Assembly (NCBI RefSeq): GCF_019931145.1
Contig: NZ_JAIOUV010000009.1
Location: 1-64,000, forward strand
Direction of reading: 5' to 3'
Source: Marinicella meishanensis
Lineage (GTDB): Bacteria; Pseudomonadota; Gammaproteobacteria; Xanthomonadales; Marinicellaceae
DNA length: 64,000 nt
A program made the position numbers and the translations under genes. The notes below the pieces were generated by a model. The model was not told where the DNA came from, made no database searches, and saw nothing but the letters and a program-made list of their open reading frames with translations. Below, piece by piece: positions 7,901 through 57,977 of this stretch (within the stretch, counting starts at the first letter, position 1; each line of letters begins with the position of its first letter).

Positions 7901-10900
7901 ATTGTCGATGTCGTAGGTCGAGACCAAAGTACCAATGGCTTCATCCTCATCGCCATTGTCATCAGCCACGGCACGGATGCGCAAACTGTAGGTGTGGTTT
8001 CCAAACATTTCTGCCCGTGCCGGGATTAAATTGGCACCCGCTGGCAAGGATTCATCAGTGATCAAATTTATGATCTCGTTGGTTGGCACCCCATTCACAT
8101 CATGTTTATAGGCATCGATGGTCACTTGCGATGCAGTAACCAAATCAATGGTGATGCCTTCCAGACGACAAACGGCCGCGTTGGCCAAGTCCAGAGAGGT
8201 GCTTAATCTCAAGGCCTTGTCAAAGGTGTTGTTGATCACGGGGCCACCACAGGCACCAAAAAGACCGTTGCCCGATTCGCAATTAACAGCGCTGATGAGC
8301 CTGCGAGACAACCCTTCAAGGGTTTCTTTTTCGTGCTTGATTTCAAACTCGGTGCCACTGTTCATCACCAGCTCGATGAAATAATTCTTGTCCACATCAA
8401 TCGGTGTGCCTGCGGGCAAAGTCACATCCACAACCGGAGATCCTGGATAATGGGTGGTTTCACTGTGGATCAATTGTGAGTCAGCATAAAAATTCGCAGT
8501 TAGATCAGTGGGTTGAAAGCTTGGAGGCGAGATTAAAACGGTGAAGATTGAGCGGGTGGTGGTGGCTTGTTCATCGTTGAGATCAAACACCTGAGGGATT
8601 CTGCCCACCAATTCTGCCTGTACAGTGGCACTGCGGGTGATCACTGTCATTTGGTCAATGAACTGCCCCGGATAGACCCCAACAGATTCAAACACCACGT
8701 CATCATTGGTGATGGTGTTGATGTTCAAAGTGGGCACTTCACCCATGGCGTAATTCACAACCCAATCATCTGAGAAGCCACCAATGGTGAGCTCTGCATT
8801 ACCCACCACGCTGACGGTTTCTTGGGAGTCAGAAGACAACAAACGACGTTGAACAAAATCACAGCCATCAGGTGTTCCATCATTGGTGTAGGACAGATAA
8901 TACGGTTTAATCTGGCGATTCACACTGTCTTCTGGTTCGGCACCAAAATAGTCGCCGTTGGGACCATTGGTGTTGTCACCCATGTACACAATCCCTGCTG
9001 GGGCATAGTTACCAGGGGCCACTTCAAAACCATTGAGGCGGCTGATGGTCACATCTACCAAACCAGCTGAACTGATGGTGACTGGAAATCGGGTGGCAGG
9101 GTAGCCTTTGCCGTTGTAAAGCGAAAATGTTTGCCAAGTTAAATCAGATGACAACTGGGCTGATGTGTCGGCACACGCAGGTACATCAATGGCGCCCAAA
9201 TCATGACAACTGTTGACCGCTATTTTGGCGGGAGTCTCAGCATCACAACGACCGGTGATGGCGGCTTTGGTTTGATCTACTTGAAAACCCAAGGCGGTCA
9301 GTTGTTCGTTGGTCAGTTCCTGGTCACCCTGCCACCGGACATTTTCAGCAGGCAGCAAGTCTTGCTGAAGGACGCCTTCAAACGCAGCCGACTGAAATGT
9401 CTTGGCAACATCGCCAGACGATTCGCTGGTGGATTTATTGATGGATGCCTGTGGAATGGGTGTGTCAGCAGTGATGGTGATGGGGGTGTTGGGCACCGGA
9501 TTGTTGAATTGATCAACCACTGCTACGTAGACATTACCGGCATGCATTTCCTGCTGTCCTGCCTGGGCCACACAGTCCAATCCTTGCCAATGACAGTCAT
9601 TGACCAAAATTTGGGTCGGCTGATCTGGGATGGCATAGTGATTGAAGGGCTCTTGGCCGGCCACAAAACCCAAATTGGTGTTGACCCCAAACTGGATTTC
9701 AACCAAGCCCAGTTGGGTCAGGTTTTCATCGCTGGGATTGACCCGAACCAATGGTCCGCTCCTCAGTTTTTGGTCCAGCATCACCTGCACTTCTGCGATG
9801 CCTTGTTGGTTGGTTTGAACCACCAGTGCATCAACCAAACCCGAATCAGATTGCAATTGGGCTTGTGCTCCCACCACACTGAACAACACTTGGGCACCAA
9901 TCACTGGGCGATTTTGGGCATCGGTGACCAAAACTTGACTGGGCATGGGCAAGGCTTGATTTACCACACCGTATTGCTGGTCGGTGGCTTCAATCTTCAC
10001 CACTTTGCGTCCGGCATTGGGGTCTTCATTGGCGCCTTCGGCATAAGGTGCTGAAAGCATTTGATTCAGCTCCCCCAACTCCCAATCATTGGGCGGTTCT
10101 GTGGTTTGTCCGCCGGCATAACCACCGCTGATGAAAAAACCTGATTGGCCAGTTTCAGGGTGCCAAATGTACCATGTAGAGCCTATCCAGGCGTTCTTTT
10201 GAGTTGGATTTTGACCTATCAGCACATGATGGCCGCCGTCAACCCAAGACTGTACGTGTGATTTAACGTATTCAGGGTGATTCAAGCCACTGATCAGTCC
10301 GGACTGATTGGCCTGTGTGATTTCATGGATGACCTCACCATTGTGGCTTTGAATACGCAGACCTTGATCGGCAGAAATGGCTTCGATGTCCCATTGGGCA
10401 CCAAATATTTCTGACTCCAGATACGACCCTTGCAATGCCGCCAAGCGCATCCAATCAGCACTGATTTCTGAGACTTCGTTGATCGCATCAACAGTGCGGC
10501 TCACTGCATCAAAACTGACTCCCATAAATCGCATTCGGATTGGAATGCCATTGAATTCATCCACCGCATATTCAGGCGCGATGATGGCCACACTGGGTAT
10601 TGGCCGGATGATGGTTTGACCCATCAAGCTGGCCATCTCATTTTCGGCCTCGGCCCATTGTTGGTTGTAGCGAATGCCCAGATTGTGCATCAATCGAATC
10701 GGCAAAGTTTCGTCATCAAGCTGATTGATGGTAATGGGACTCTGCGGAAATTCATCATCTTGTGTGCCCAACACCAACGACAAATAGGTGCCCGCAATCA
10801 ATTTTCGATTCAACTCAATTGAACCGCTGGGACCATGTAAACTCAGCCTCATATCATGGGCTTTGGCCATGGAAATCTCCAATGGCTCATTGGCCACTGG

Positions 10901-12602: not shown

Positions 12603-15600
12603 TCAATGGCCCTCCATGTCGGTAAACAAACCAGCATTATCGGCATTCATAAAACCCGGTGCAGCGCATTCAAATGGATCTTTGAAGATAAATGGGTACA
12701 CTGTGTCTGAGTCATGTGCGAAGTTGTCACTTGGATTAACGTCGGATATTTCATCAGGCATCAACACCTCTGCTGAACCCATCACCAATGCCGGTTCTGC
12801 CGCCACCACCACGGTTTGGAAAATGAACTCGACTTGCCCACCAATTGGCATGTCCAGTAACTGACCTGTCAAGTTACCCACGCCACTGTTTTGATAACAG
12901 TGGCTTCCTGAAGAGGCCACACAGGTCCAGCCAGGAGTTGCCAGACCTGCATCAAACTCAGCATACGCTGCCACGCCATTGATTGCCTTATTTCCAGTGT
13001 TCTGAATGATGTAGTGGTATGTCAGGCTTTGTCCGTTCTTCACCCCAGCTTGGCAATTGGTGATGGCAGCACTCAGGTCTGGCCGCTCACCTGCAATCAA
13101 AGTCAAATCCAAGCTTTGATGCACGTCCACATCGTCGTCAATATACACCTCTAATGTTAATGTGGCAGGTGAGTCGTTAACCATAAGCCAAAATTCACGG
13201 GTAATGGTCTCACCTTCAGCCAGGTCATAGGCAAAACTGAATCCATCCGGGTTGGGAGTGATCATCGTGTCACTGTGAGCCAAAAGCAATGTTTCCGGTA
13301 GCAACACCTGAACATGACCCGCTACAGCGCGGCCACTGTTAACCAACTCGAATTGAACTGCGCGGGCATATCCCAATTCATTGGACAATCCCAATGGATG
13401 GGTATAAGAAAATGCGGCTTTGAGAATTGGCATGTAACCATTGATGCCATTTTGACCCATCGCTTGCAACAACCAATCCAAACCGGCAAACACAGCAGAT
13501 CCCTCCAAGCCATCCAACCAACTGATGGCCCAGTGATTGGGTTGATTGATACCTGGACCATTGAAGTGGGCCGCTCCGGTGGCACCTGACAAAGACACCT
13601 GTAACACCGGCTCAGTGGGCTCAATCGCCAACACTTCAGGAGCACTGAAAGGCGAGGCCAACCATTCTGTGGCAATGGCAGACTGGTGAGTACCGATCAC
13701 ACTCACACCCATGGCTGAATAGGATTGGGCGGTCAAGTTGTCATGGCCACTGGCAACCAGCAGTCCGGCACCAGCATTCACTGCTTGCATCAATTGATCT
13801 TGCTGTGTATCACTGAGTAGAACATTCTCCGCCAACAGCGCATAAGCCACATACTGACCTGTGGCCATTGCCTCGGAAAATTCGCTGGCTTCGGTGACCA
13901 GGTCAAATGACCAACCTTCTGACAGCAACATGTTTTCCAGCATCACCTGCTGGCTGGCCAAATAGGGTGCTGTGGCCGGACCATTGGGGTCATCTGTGGC
14001 CAGAGCAGGAAACAAGCGCACATCAGCCACTTGTAAATCACCGACTTGGCCACCTATATCAGCCATCAATTCACAACCCACATCAATCAAACCGCTGGAC
14101 CAACTGGTAACCCCCTGAGAGCTTTGCAGTGACAAAGTCAGCTGATATGGTTGCATCATGATGGCCGGATTGGCACCACTGGCGTGGTGTACCCAAGCCG
14201 CCACAACACCATTGGTAGGCGGCATCAACAGCAGATTAACATCACTGGTTTCCCCCTGTTGATCAATGACTTGTTGGCCGATGTTGATGAAGTCGACATA
14301 GGCTGCCGTTTCTGTTTGGATCAAGGTGCCTTGGGCATCAAACAGTTGCGCTGTGATGACATCAGCAAATGCCCAACTGTGCTCTGTGCGACGTTGTAGG
14401 CGGTAGTCACTGAGGCCTTGGCATTGGTTCGAGTCAACTTGAGCAGTGGCCGGATCGACCAATAACAGCAGGCGGCCAGTTTGTTTGTTGGCTCGGACAT
14501 TCGCTGCCAAGACGGGTTTTTCTTGATAGAACCCAAAATTTTCAATCCTGGTTAGGTTGGCCTCAACAATCACCTGTGAAGGATTGTTGTTGGTGGTGAG
14601 CATCCATTCATTCAACAGTGCTTCCTCAATCACAGCCACCGTGTATTCACCGGGAACCAAATCCACCAGAGAATAATGTCCCATGGTGTCGGTCAGAATT
14701 TCCTGACTGATTTGATTTTCATCAGTAACGCGCAGTGCCACTTGATTGAAACCGACTTCTCCGCCATCAATCATGCCGTCTTGATCGTCATCCTGCCAAA
14801 CGCGACCTGACAAAGCGCCCACTTCGATGTATTCGACTTGTCTGATTTGTGGTTCACTGACATTGCCAGCTTGGTCGGTGGCTGTCACAGTGATCAGATT
14901 CATACCAACCTGCAAATCCAGTTCCGGGGAGTTGAACTGTCCAGCTGCATCGGTTTTGACCACACTGAAGCTGCCATTGACATCAATCCCAATGGTGTTG
15001 CTTGGTTCTGATGATCCACTGACCACCACATGCCCAGTGGTGTTTTGGCTGTTGTTGATTGGAGCCGTAACCACCAGCACTGGAGCGGTGGTGTCGATGA
15101 TGAACTCACGTATGACTGATGCACTGTTTCCAACCTCATCTGTGGCTATGATGAGCAGTTCATGGCTACCTTCGGCATCCACAACATGTCCATTATCGAT
15201 CGTTATTTGGTTCAACTCTGCCACGGCAACAAAACCATGGTCATCAGTGACTTCAAAGTCCACCAACACAGGCTGATTGGTGATCAGTCCATCTGATGGG
15301 CTGTTCACCTCGATCATCGGACCTTGGGTATCGACTGCAAAAGAGACCACTGCACTGGTGGTCACATTGGCATGACTGTCTTCTGCCCTGAACACGACTT
15401 GATGATCACCATGGGTTAATGACAGTTGTGTGCCATATTCAACGCCATTCCATGTCAGAGGCACCCACGTGGATGAGCCATCCAGTTGGTAGCTGACCTC
15501 GTTCACATCACTGTGGGCATCATTGGCCAAAACCACAAACTCAACATTGTTATCGAATAACTGATTGGAAATTGGCTCGACCACGGTCAATTCCGGGCCC

Positions 15601-49764: not shown

Positions 49765-50132
49765 CCGAGTCTCGGGGCCACACACAGGAGGTGTGTGTGC
49801 AGCCACACAAGGAGGTGATCATCACGCCAAAGGCCTGGTGTGAGCTGCCACCACACCACAGGACGTGGTGTTGAACAAGGACCAAGGAACCAGGCAATCA
49901 GCGACTGGGAAGTCGCGCATGAGGAACCCATGCACGGTGATTGTCGGCCAGGAAGGCCAAACCACACGGAGGTGGGGCACATTTAAACGGAACAGCCATT
50001 GGTGATCAACAAGGCGGTTGATACCGCACCAGTGACAAGATTAAGGTTTGGTCGCAAACAGGGAGATGTTTGAGGTTGCGATCAAAACAGACTCAGCCGG
50101 CTCAAGCAGGACGCATGATCCGGCATTTTTTT
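49765..50132 (+). ncRNA. CsrB/RsmZ-like regulatory RNA (CsrA/RsmA sponge candidate)
   Basis: About 368 nt with no open frame, made of consecutive short hairpins whose loops show GGA. Clear stem-loops: 49779-49799 (loop GGAGG), 49853-49871 (AGGAC), 49901-49916 (GGGA), 49917-49933 (AGGAACC), 49946-49958 (AGGAA), 49962-49975 (ACGGAG) and 50055-50072 (GGGAGA). Twelve GGA triplets occur in all, far above expectation, and most are preceded by A. It ends in a stem followed by seven T whose loop itself carries AGGAC. This is the architecture of CsrB, CsrC, RsmY and RsmZ, which bind many copies of the translational regulator CsrA/RsmA and so relieve its repression. The 5' end is uncertain: it may have its own promoter inside the DUF6502 gene or be processed from that mRNA. 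CsrA itself is not encoded in the window. Confidence 0.8.
50096..50132 (+). terminator. Terminator of the first CsrB-like RNA
   Basis: GCCGG (50096-50100) pairs with CCGGC (50120-50124) and is followed by seven T after one A. The 19-nt loop includes AGGAC, another potential CsrA site. Confidence 0.75.
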
Positions 50133-54368: not shown

Positions 54369-54675
54369 CAACCACATACCTCCCTGCCCTCGGCATTTTA
54401 TCAATGGCGGCCGACCAATCATAGGGTAAGGCGCCCAGGGCTGTCAAACCCTGATCATTGACTGACCAGTTTGCTGACTGTGGGTGCCACTGAAGTCCTC
54501 TGACCCATCCGTCTTTGCTTTGCCTGGCATGTGTGCCAGTGGCCCAGAGAACCTGATTCAAACCAACCCGTTTCAATTTGTATCAACACTGTTTTCATTT
54601 GTTTCAAGAGGCAGAAGCCGCCCCTGTTTTCGCCTATAGTGATCACCAGTGAAAGCAAGCCACGGAAAACCCAAA

Positions 54676-56118
54676 ATGAGCATGAAACTTAAACACATCC
54701 CGTTATTCACCCTGCTGATGATCTGCCAACCATTGTCGGCGGCACACCTGTCAGATTCGGGTGAAGGAGAAGTCTTGGTGTTTCCGTATTACACAGTCAA
54801 CAATGACTTGGCCACCTTAATCAAGATCAACAACAACCGGGATGAAGCCAAAGCCATCAAAGTCAACTTCCTCGAAGGCAACAACATGGAGATGACCTTG
54901 TCATACAACGTCTATCTGGGGCCCCATGACTCTTGGGAAGTGGCACTGGTGGCCACCACCGCAACCATCAATGGCGTGATCGGCGAACCTTCCGTGTTGC
55001 ATGTTACACCAGACACCTCATGCGCCCCCTACCTGAACAAAGCCGGGCAAGAGTTTCTGCCCTTTGGTTTGTCCAATTTTCCATCCGATTCAGCCATAAT
55101 GGACCGGGTGACCCAAGGCATGGTGCAGGTGTTTGAAATGGGCGAATTGCCCCAAGATGTGGCCGCTTGGGTGGACTACACAAACAGTGGTGTGCCAGCC
55201 AACTGCGGCGCCTTTGTCAGTGAATGGAATGACGGTGAATGGAATGCCACAGAGTTAACACCGGCCACCGGCGGGCTGTCAGGCACCGCTTCGATCATCG
55301 GTGTGTCCGAAGGCTCATCGATCACATACAACGCCGATGCCATTAACAACTTCTACCCGCCTACTACCGTGATCCACACGGAACCGGGCAATTTCTTGCC
55401 CAACTTGAATTCGGCCGCGCCCCACAGCGTGGTCTACAGCGACGGTCAAATCTATGAGTCCAATTGGGAGACCGGCGCCGATGCGATTTCGGCCTTGTTC
55501 ATGAGCCAATCCATTTCCAACGACTTCATTTTGGGCTCATTCATTGCGGCCAAAACCGAATGGGTGGTGTCCTTTCCCACCAAGGGCTTTTATGTCAATG
55601 ACCAGGCACCCAAGGCGCCGTTTCAATCCGTATACCAAGAAGCTGAAGGCGCCTGTGTGAATTTTGGCCGCATCCGCAACTTCCCCACTTCATTTGGTGG
55701 CGGCTATGGGGCGGTGATTGGCGACAACAACAACGGCCAAGTCTGCACCCCACCGCCCAGGCCTGAAATCAAAACCATGTGCTGGGCCGCCAATGTGATG
55801 TTCTTTTACAACTGCGAGCCGGGCAACACCAAAGAAGAAGGCGCACAAATCCTCGGCGCGTACAACAACCAATACGGCATCCGGGTCAAACCATATGAAA
55901 CCGGCAAGAGCACCATTGATTTTTCTACGATGGTTGACTATGCAAGCACCGCCTTAAAGGATGCGGATGAGCAATACACTTACCATGGCTTCCCGGTCAC
56001 CGGCTTTGCCATCAGCAAATTCACCAACAGCGGCGCCCAACCCGGCCTGCTGGCCCAATACGCCAATGTCAGAAAACACAATTTGGGCAAGCACATCGTT
56101 GAGGAGGCATCAGAATAA
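54676..56118 (+). CDS. Secreted protein of unknown function, about 480 residues
   Basis: The protein has 480 residues from ATG at 54676 (a GTG at 54649 would add 9). A signal peptide (IPLFTLLMICQPLSA) is followed by a beta-rich body: EVLVFPYYTVNNDLATLIKI, KAIKVNFLEGNNMEMTLSYN, VYLGPHDSWEVAL and scattered Cys residues. This outline recalls a group of uncharacterised secreted proteins found in marine and soil proteobacteria, in which an opening 'YYTVN..TLI.I.N' is usual. No enzymatic motif was found. A -10-like TATAGT lies near 54634. A CsrB-like RNA begins just after the stop codon, which may mean the RNA is made from this transcript's 3' end. Confidence 0.7.
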   Translation: MSMKLKHIPLFTLLMICQPLSAAHLSDSGEGEVLVFPYYTVNNDLATLIKINNNRDEAKAIKVNFLEGNNMEMTLSYNVYLGPHDSWEVALVATTATINGVIGEPSVLHVTPDTSCAPYLNKAGQEFLPFGLSNFPSDSAIMDRVTQGMVQVFEMGELPQDVAAWVDYTNSGVPANCGAFVSEWNDGEWNATELTPATGGLSGTASIIGVSEGSSITYNADAINNFYPPTTVIHTEPGNFLPNLNSAAPHSVVYSDGQIYESNWETGADAISALFMSQSISNDFILGSFIAAKTEWVVSFPTKGFYVNDQAPKAPFQSVYQEAEGACVNFGRIRNFPTSFGGGYGAVIGDNNNGQVCTPPPRPEIKTMCWAANVMFFYNCEPGNTKEEGAQILGAYNNQYGIRVKPYETGKSTIDFSTMVDYASTALKDADEQYTYHGFPVTGFAISKFTNSGAQPGLLAQYANVRKHNLGKHIVEEASE

Positions 56119-56372
56119 AGACTTTGTTTGGCCCAACAGGACCGTTGGGTTTGCAGGTTAAGGAAATCGTGTGCCCCAACAAGGACGTTGGGTTCAAGGA
56201 TACGGAAATCATGCGGCCCAACAAGGAAGTTGGGGTTGAAGGATATGGAGATCATGTGGCTTGACAGGATCGTTGGGATGAGGGATATGGAAATCGAGAG
56301 ACACCCGACAGGGACGTTGGGTGGTGGTTGTTTACAAGGAATTCAAAAGGGCTGCCTGGGGTGGCCTTTTTT
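56119..56372 (+). ncRNA. Second CsrB/RsmZ-like regulatory RNA, built of tandem modules
   Basis: About 250 non-coding nucleotides. Five hairpins share the stem CCCAAC/GTTGGG or close variants and show GGA in a 6-nt loop: 56132-56149 (AGGACC), 56175-56192 (AAGGAC), 56217-56234 (AAGGAA), 56260-56277 (AGGATC, wobble-paired) and 56302-56323 (AGGGAC, 8-bp stem with wobbles). The linkers between them carry further sites of the form AAGGATAYGGARATC. About 13 GGA triplets are present. The hairpin plus linker recurs every 42-44 nt, so the RNA grew by tandem duplication. It ends at an intrinsic terminator. The design is that of RNAs that titrate CsrA/RsmA. The exact 5' end is unknown. Confidence 0.85.
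56345..56372 (+). terminator. Terminator of the second CsrB-like RNA
   Basis: AAAAGG (56345-56350) pairs with CCTTTT (56365-56370), extended by an inner CTGCC/GGTGG stem after a bulged G, and continues into a six-T run. On the other strand only four T follow, so it is mainly a plus-strand terminator. Confidence 0.75.
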
Positions 56373-56486
56373 GTTAGGGGCAAGTGAAGGTCAATATCTT
56401 ATTGTTGTTTGCAATTTTCATTGTTTAAAACAGTTAAAAACCTTCTCGGAGAAATTCAACCCTCTTGAATCAATGTTTTGAATGTC

Positions 56487-57977
56487 TTACCAATTGATGT
56501 TTTCCATATTGGGCATGGGGCCTATGGGTTTTTCCAATGCTGTGGTTTGAGGCTGTCCTGTTTCTTTTAACAAACTCCTCACTTGCAAAGGTGACATGAT
56601 CCCTGCTACAGACATTTTTGCTTGGGCTTGGGTGCTGGCGACACAGGCTGCCACGATGGGTGTGGCTGAGGAAGTTCCTCCAAAATTAGGGCCGTATCTG
56701 CGATCTGGCCCAGCATCAAACAAGGCAACTTCATCCTCTCTCAAAAACAACAAGGCGGCAACGGATTCTCCCCAGGCGTGCAAATCGACCCGGCTACCAT
56801 GGTTGGTATAACAGGTTGGTGCCCTTTCATCTGACAAGCTAGCAGCCACCCAAATGGCACCTGAGTCGTAGCTCTGCGTATCAAACATACTTTGAAAAAC
56901 ATTGCTGTCAAAATCAACACACCCGTTGCCAGCCGCTTCAACGACAGAGATACCTGAGGCCACCATCATACTGATCACGTCATACTCAGCTGGATAAAAC
57001 TCCAGTGGGACATGATTGGCTTGAGTTGGGTTACATGGGCAATCAAATCCCAGTGCCTGAACTGTTTTGGCCACCTCAATGACGATGACATCACCAGGGT
57101 CCAGCTGATCGGCGGCTTCCAATAAGCTTTGGGCATGGGACACCCCCAGACCAACACTCCCCGCTTGTTGAAATCCAAATAGAGCTTGATGGACGCCGCC
57201 AACCAGCCCTAAACTGTTGTCTTCTGCACCCAATATCCCCAATACCGCTGTACCATGCCGCTCATCGACTGGGTTTCCAGGTGTGGTGTAAAATAAAGAA
57301 GGTAAGTCTTCATGTGTATCTCGGTAATTATTGTCGTAGACGATGACCTTGACGCCACCACCGGCACCACCCAGGTGATTCCAAGCGCTAAACATGCCCA
57401 CGCCTTCTGGCGCATCACGAAAGTATCCTTGGTGCTCTACCAGTATAGGCGTCATCCCTGGAACTGCAACATTGGTTGGGCCTTGAAAACCTTCATGTGA
57501 TTGATTGGGCGCTTCCAGATAGGCCACTTGTACGATACTGAGACTATTTAAGAAACTCAGCTCTTCACGGAATCTATAACCTGGGACATCTTCCGTGGAT
57601 AAACTCAAGTAAGTGTTTAAATCAACCAGGTAACGGCCAGTTTCACGCATGATGCGCTGTCGTTTCCTGTCTAGTGACCGTTGATCCATGTTCAACAAAG
57701 GTTTGAAGTTCGGATGGTTGAAATGCAGCCACCTGTTGAGCTGGTCCAGTTCATTGATTTCAAACCGGCTCAAGCGCTTTGTGGCAATTAACTTGCCCCG
57801 TTGGAAACGAATACCTGTTTGATCTTTTAATTTTAGAACCAGTCTGTCATGTATTTGTTCACTTCTCGCTAGATACATCGCCATGGCTTTTGATAGGTGA
57901 CCTGTTTCTCTTTGGAGTTGGCAATGTGCAGGTTGAAGCAGCATGATCAGCACAAGCAATGGTATCAAACGTTTCAT
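56487..57977 (-). CDS. Secreted subtilisin-like serine protease (S8), second of a tandem pair
   Basis: The protein has 496 residues with signal peptide LIPLLVLIMLLQPAHC, whose terminal Cys could also be a lipobox. A propeptide-like region of about 180 residues precedes the S8 catalytic domain. The catalytic Asp is near residue 211 (VIVYDNNYRDTHEDL), His near 240 (RHGTAVLGILGA), the oxyanion Asn near 348 (VEAAGNG) and the nucleophilic Ser near 438 (GGTSSATPIVAA). The Asp motif lacks the common DTG/DSG form, but the full triad is present. The ATG directly follows the stop codon of the upstream paralogue without any spacer, so the two are co-translated. Confidence 0.88.
   Translation of the reverse strand: MKRLIPLLVLIMLLQPAHCQLQRETGHLSKAMAMYLARSEQIHDRLVLKLKDQTGIRFQRGKLIATKRLSRFEINELDQLNRWLHFNHPNFKPLLNMDQRSLDRKRQRIMRETGRYLVDLNTYLSLSTEDVPGYRFREELSFLNSLSIVQVAYLEAPNQSHEGFQGPTNVAVPGMTPILVEHQGYFRDAPEGVGMFSAWNHLGGAGGGVKVIVYDNNYRDTHEDLPSLFYTTPGNPVDERHGTAVLGILGAEDNSLGLVGGVHQALFGFQQAGSVGLGVSHAQSLLEAADQLDPGDVIVIEVAKTVQALGFDCPCNPTQANHVPLEFYPAEYDVISMMVASGISVVEAAGNGCVDFDSNVFQSMFDTQSYDSGAIWVAASLSDERAPTCYTNHGSRVDLHAWGESVAALLFLREDEVALFDAGPDRRYGPNFGGTSSATPIVAACVASTQAQAKMSVAGIMSPLQVRSLLKETGQPQTTALEKPIGPMPNMENINW

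Follow-up and report, generated by a model that had tools for sequence, protein, structure and literature searches.

Directly behind the gene for a 489-aa protein in the marine bacterium Marinicella meishanensis (54649-56118, + strand) lies a series of hairpins with GGA in their loops. The question that this locus raises is whether the stretch from 56119, which directly follows that gene's stop codon, to 56372 (+ strand) encodes an RNA that sequesters the RNA-binding regulator CsrA. Coordinates given without a contig refer to the window, the whole 64,000-nt stretch of DNA that was analyzed. The locus very probably encodes a CsrB-like small RNA that titrates CsrA and has grown as a ~43-nt unit was duplicated in tandem. 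It is most likely a lineage-specific, predicted CsrA-sequestering RNA that is made from, or beside, the 3' end of a gene.

Direct reading and a repeat search revealed five tandem units with a period of 42 to 44 nt at 56130-56343 (+ strand), and the spacing between successive unit starts is 43, 42, 43, and 44 nt. Each unit opens with a six-pair stem and a six-base loop containing GGA. Unit 1 (43 nt, 56130-56172) carries this hairpin at 56132-56149, with the loop AGGACC, and a second GGA at 56162. Unit 2 (42 nt, 56173-56214) has its main hairpin at 56175-56192 (loop AAGGAC), and its linker is able to fold a three-pair mini-hairpin at 56199-56210 (loop ACGGAA). The same holds for unit 3 (43 nt, 56215-56257; main hairpin 56217-56234, loop AAGGAA; mini-hairpin 56242-56253, loop ATGGAG) and unit 4 (44 nt, 56258-56301; main hairpin 56260-56277 with G-U pairs, loop AGGATC; mini-hairpin 56284-56295, loop ATGGAA). 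Unit 5 (56302-56343) is diverged, with a main hairpin at 56304-56321 (loop AGGGAC) and a GGA at 56338, and is without a mini-hairpin. All of these elements are on the + strand, as is the U-tailed hairpin AAAAGG..CCTTTTTT at 56345-56372, a probable intrinsic terminator by its fold and by reading; it is absent from the output of a terminator consensus scan, which gave hairpin 5 of the array instead. A preliminary description of this DNA had reported five GGA-exposing hairpins at a near-regular ~43-nt period, which was confirmed, and had attributed them to tandem duplication, which the five near-copies of the unit support. The five GGA-loop hairpins of the array compare with a shuffle mean of 0.79 and a maximum of 4, and none of 1000 dinucleotide shuffles reached five. 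The plain number of GGA stands out less, at 14 against a shuffle mean of 9.9, with 38 of 1000 shuffles reaching 14.

The same description had proposed that the hairpins share the stem CCCAAC/GTTGGG and that the linkers repeat, and each proposal held for part of the array. The stem is exact in three of the five units, while the left arm reads CTTGAC in unit 4 and CCCGAC in unit 5. All four substitutions in the main stems give G-U pairs on the + strand, so that every one of the 30 main-stem cells holds a standard pair. Two-sided (compensatory) changes between the five units numbered zero, and 110 of 500 shuffles matched the percentage paired in the whole structure. Units 2 and 3 carry the linker AAGGATAYGGARATC unchanged; it is off by one base in unit 4 and by three in unit 1, and unit 5 has lost it.

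Between 56119 and 56374 there are 14 GGA and no TCC; five of the GGA lie in main loops, and one overlaps a stem. The CsrB-like architecture that had been claimed is supported. High-affinity targets of RsmE are reported to be ANGGAN hexaloops, and the reported SELEX consensus for CsrA is RUACARGGAUGU (PMC7652899). Three of the five main loops (AAGGAC, AAGGAA, and AGGGAC) and the three linker loops (ACGGAA, ATGGAG, and ATGGAA) have the ANGGAN form, which the other two main loops, AGGACC in unit 1 and AGGATC in unit 4, do not match. Units 2, 3, and 5 read ACARGGANGU, near the SELEX consensus. The distance from the loop GGA to the second GGA is 23, 21, 22, 22, and 26 nt in units 1 to 5, respectively, and units 2 to 4 have an additional GGA 6 nt ahead of the linker GGA. 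A CsrA dimer is reported to bridge two sites 10 to 63 nt apart, with an optimum of >18 nt (PMC7652899). The in-unit spacing is within this range, and the unit is therefore suited to one CsrA dimer. One dimer would clamp one unit through the loop GGA and the second GGA 21 to 26 nt downstream, and about four to five dimers would then fit on the RNA. In this way, it would bind and titrate CsrA and so affect target mRNAs. The array would have grown by tandem duplication of this two-site unit of ~43 nt, and each duplication would raise the capacity by whole dimers.

The unit spacing also bears on a different reading, in which the array is a protein-coding repeat in phase with the upstream gene. The in-phase frame has no stop between 56119 and 56344, and a 117-codon ORF is listed from 56128, as such a repeat would have it. 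However, only one of the four spacings is a multiple of three, and therefore the repeat is not kept at the protein level; the features that are conserved are the stem and the loop GGA. The coding reading was rejected on the unit spacing, and we regard it as highly improbable.

In the minimum-energy fold of the array (-82.3 kcal/mol), units 2 and 3 pair with each other. Pair probability exceeds 0.5 only for hairpins 1 (0.61) and 5 (0.97), and the other three have values of 0.02 to 0.04. Forcing all five hairpins gave -77.3 kcal/mol, a penalty of 5 kcal/mol. The overall stability is mildly above that of shuffled sequences (z, -1.78), 10 of 200 of which fold equally well. During transcription, the local hairpins would form first, and CsrA would favor them.

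With regard to known families, the preliminary description had held that Rfam models do not cover the RNA. In agreement with this, no match reached gathering level in the whole window, and in a lax search the best Csr-type match to the array was RsmY (13.4 bits; E, 0.9; gathering, 57), with no match to CsrB (RF00018) listed even at an E value of 10. The same description had tied its case to a CsrA homologue being present in the genome. One CsrA gene was found, on the same contig as the array (G000:C15:92653-92808), scoring above two curated cut-offs (118.7 bits versus 73 and 102.6 bits versus 70.1). A regulator of GacA/UvrY type scored 274.8 bits, just under its cut-off of 280 and with the next family at 158.8 bits. 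The two hybrid kinases scanned both had BarA as their best NCBIfam match (425 and 397 bits, far below the cut-off of 890), and there was no clear BarA/GacS orthologue among them.

No sigma-70-like promoter was found in 55700-56600. A weak GacA-box-like palindrome with two mismatches lies at 55941-55958 (+ strand), 178 nt before 56119, and such sites occur in the window at chance density (6 versus 7.9 expected). Unit 1 begins 11 bases past the stop codon of the 489-aa gene, and the transcript of that gene may run into the array, because the terminator scan listed no terminator-like site between the two. Downstream of the array are two convergent subtilase-family genes. This arrangement would also suit a cis-acting 3' untranslated region (UTR) of the 489-aa gene, through which CsrA would control mRNA stability or decay, with titration a side effect or absent. 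Cis CsrA sites usually number one to a few, and the some thirteen sites in the array are far above that number. Moreover, the upstream gene belongs to a many-copy family that has no Pfam match but has matches in 31 of the 33 genomes of the bacterial family, 11 of them in the M. meishanensis genome, some in tandem. Among 30 loci around homologues of this gene (one per genome), only that of the window has the array, which speaks against a cis function for the gene; its locus has five GGA-loop hairpins per 200 nt, and the other 29 have at most three. We consider the cis-acting reading rather unlikely.

Searches of relatives did not support a family defined by this unit, a possibility that had been suggested. 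With a covariance model of the unit, a clear array was found only in the M. meishanensis genome, both among the 33 family genomes (1/33; at most 150 of 268 to 684 candidates scored per genome) and, under stricter filters, among 299 genomes of the order (1/299; 21 candidates scored per genome), which include many of the 33. There is thus no evidence of a family, and since limited numbers of candidates were scored per genome, the absence of array homologues is unproven. In the M. meishanensis genome, the model gave five hits of 37 to 57 bits in the array, and the next hit scored 17.6 bits. Across the family, 18 of 33 genomes had hits at an E value of ≤1, M. meishanensis included; elsewhere, these reached at most 24.2 bits and never formed an array of the 43-nt unit. 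Across the order, 9 of 299 genomes had hits at an E value of ≤0.01, namely M. meishanensis and eight genomes with single hits of 24.1 to 28.9 bits, none of them an array. BLAST with the array matched 2 of 33 family genomes at an E value of ≤0.01, M. meishanensis itself and G004, where the match is 38 nt long and terminator-like. A stem-loop hairpin pattern was found in 4 of 33 genomes and a paired-loop hairpin pattern in 16 of 33; outside M. meishanensis, a reversed-pattern control was about equally frequent as the latter. The search of viral contigs gave 12 hits, one per locus and none repeated. Synteny was followed through dsbD, present in 4 of 33 family genomes at an E value of ≤1e-60; G004, which is placed in the same genus as M. 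meishanensis, carries this gene. Its nearest named relatives are in M. marina, M. sediminis, and a Marinicella metagenome-assembled genome (MAG), with 64 to 65% protein identity. Two of three named Marinicella loci (L126 and L127) cover the relevant side, the third (L128) stopping 1.1 kb from dsbD. The two have differing neighbors and no 200-nt stretch with more than 9 GGA, compared with 14 in the array.

Within the M. meishanensis genome, the array ranks first by A-GGA density in the 2.10 Mb scanned and second by GGA-loop hairpins in the 2,493,733 of 3,989,142 bases scanned, where the other top locus, on contig C7, bears independent signs of a Csr RNA; both scans omitted L119, which repeats part of the window. 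Three more stretches tie at four GGA-loop hairpins, and by eye these are coding-like. The GGA scan yielded three further CsrB-like candidates, which brings the number in this genome, with the array, to at least four. No BLAST similarity was found among the four, and all stayed below Rfam gathering scores in the searches made; the Csr RNAs of Marinicella therefore look largely unannotated.

The first of these candidates (49775-50132, + strand) is 6 kb upstream of the array in the window, about ten bases behind an ORF. It has 12 GGA, seven of them in hairpin loops, and a U-tailed 3' hairpin. It had no Rfam match up to an E value of 1 and no counterpart in relatives, the matches at an E value of ≤0.05 being short and chance-like (5 of 33 genomes, M. 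meishanensis included). A short candidate of about 129 nt on contig C8, near 504.63-504.76 kb (L258 9628-9756, + strand), lies directly behind a TonB-like gene. It has 9 GGA and five loops, the fifth of which exposes AAGGA and sits in its U-tailed hairpin. In G007, G009, and G006, no counterpart was found behind the ends of the matching ORFs. Two of the three siblings thus start, like the array, only about ten bases or less behind a stop codon, which lends some weight to the 3'-UTR explanation.

The strongest CsrB-like candidate, in contrast, argues against that explanation. It lies on contig C7 near 232.45-232.81 kb (L217 12446-12810, - strand) and has 20 GGA, ten loops, and its own conserved promoter; its upstream neighbor is divergent, though a 132-codon ORF overlaps the candidate itself. 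It gave a sub-threshold match to Rfam CsrB (24 bits; E, 1.2e-4; gathering, 71), and DNA matches at an E value of ≤0.05 were found in 7 of 33 family genomes, M. meishanensis included. In an alignment of four genomes (M. meishanensis, G004, G015, and G016), 43 of 86 columns of the promoter region are invariant. The 3' hairpin GCTCAAGGATGAGC is present in 3 of 3 genomes, the contig of G016 ending before it. With ends set by eye, the number of GGA differs between species, at 20 in M. meishanensis, 7 in G015, and 4 in G004. The promoter and 3' hairpin are thus common to these Marinicella genomes, while the inner GGA region varies greatly in length.

The promoter-like element of the C7 candidate, TTGACAAGGTTT-N12-CGAGTATATAA, also precedes other, GGA-poor sequences in G015 and G016 (L293, L295, L296, L298, and L299). 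The promoter is therefore not specific to Csr RNAs, and its occurrence before other sequences in these genomes suggests a shared regulon.

GGA-bearing hairpins also occur in the genus within repeats that resemble repetitive extragenic palindromic (REP) elements or miniature inverted-repeat transposable elements (MITEs), and the array could be a repeat of this kind without a regulatory role. On contig C12 of the M. meishanensis genome, to which the paired-loop pattern had pointed, there are 48-nt tandem arrays of hairpins of the type GCCTACAAGGATGTAGG (L108, about 9553-9750, 14209-14360, and 14529-14680). Their loops include the core of the SELEX consensus for CsrA, and transcripts of these elements, if made, might bind CsrA too. 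GGA-rich repeats with the hairpin CCCTACAGGGAAGTAGGG were found in G006 (contig C3 near 246.2 kb; L047, about 1330-1560, - strand) and G011 (L037 1501-1551, - strand), where the unit model gave weak hits of 17.8 and 20.8 bits, respectively. That in G006 is a tandem array of its own, with a REP-like unit and 12 GGA in 200 nt, beside a hairpin with a T-run tail, and G012 has a related element. However, the C12 elements have inverted ends (GTCAT.. / ..ATGAC by eye), which the array lacks. Furthermore, the unit is clear only at the array in the M. meishanensis genome, no clear dispersed copies were found there, and a U-tailed hairpin closes the array. An element without a regulatory role is accordingly improbable. 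REP-like elements were also considered as seeds of CsrA sponges because their loop and stem resemble those of the array, and this likeness raises the possibility of such an origin.

Comparison with described systems places the array in a known CsrB-like kind, where it is best filed; what is unusual is the regularity of its unit and the presence of at least three unrelated siblings. Like CsrB and CsrC of Escherichia coli (RF00018), it has many GGA in hairpin loops and linkers and a terminator-like 3' end, and its genome has CsrA and a UvrY-type regulator. Unlike CsrB, it consists of a regular duplicated unit, lies directly behind a protein gene with no promoter or activator box found, and has 14 GGA in about 254 nt, compared with the 22 reported for E. 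coli CsrB (PMC7652899). With RsmX, RsmY, and RsmZ of Pseudomonas it shares ANGGAN hexaloops on short stems and sites at dimer-bridgeable distances, but its low score with the RsmY model (RF00195) sets it apart from that RNA. RsmU of Xanthomonas campestris is described as an RsmA-binding RNA processed from the 3' UTR of a protein gene; it is experimentally backed, and altering all four of its GGA motifs reportedly did not abolish RsmA binding in vitro (PMC7694677). It resembles the array in lying behind a protein gene, in its narrow range of one genus, and in having no Rfam family; it differs in having four predicted GGA motifs, and the portions of that report available to us mention no repeated unit (PMC7694677). 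Closest in kind are the 3'-UTR RsmA-binding RNAs described for Vibrio fischeri (72 to 123 nt by table coordinates), which share the 3'-UTR position, repeats, and several GGA loops, although these are from another organism, are predicted only, and are likened here by their description (PMC5568370). The Pf1 RNA of Pseudoalteromonas is reported as a CsrB-family RNA with 21 GGA that acts through CsrA and has hits only in its genus (PMC9927453). In contrast to the array, Pf1 is an intergenic gene whose promoter was tested and which has a putative GacA site, and it is conserved in its genus (PMC9927453), whereas the array is clear in one genome only. A literature search, mostly outside subscription journals, found no publication treating Marinicella together with CsrA.

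A broader picture can be put forward tentatively, as a possibility that we rate below even chances. In Marinicella, CsrA sponges may originate time and again, each independently of the others, as small units with two sites multiply in tandem; many would lie behind protein genes, and REP-like hairpins may have been their seeds. One 43-nt unit would correspond to one CsrA dimer, so that capacity would be set by the unit copy number and could be changed by simple duplication, and of a core sponge only the promoter and 3' hairpin would be conserved between species. The array may show what a recently expanded sponge looks like, with near-identical units that could be counted and altered in the laboratory, and these units would offer a way to ask how the number and spacing of sites set the titration of CsrA.
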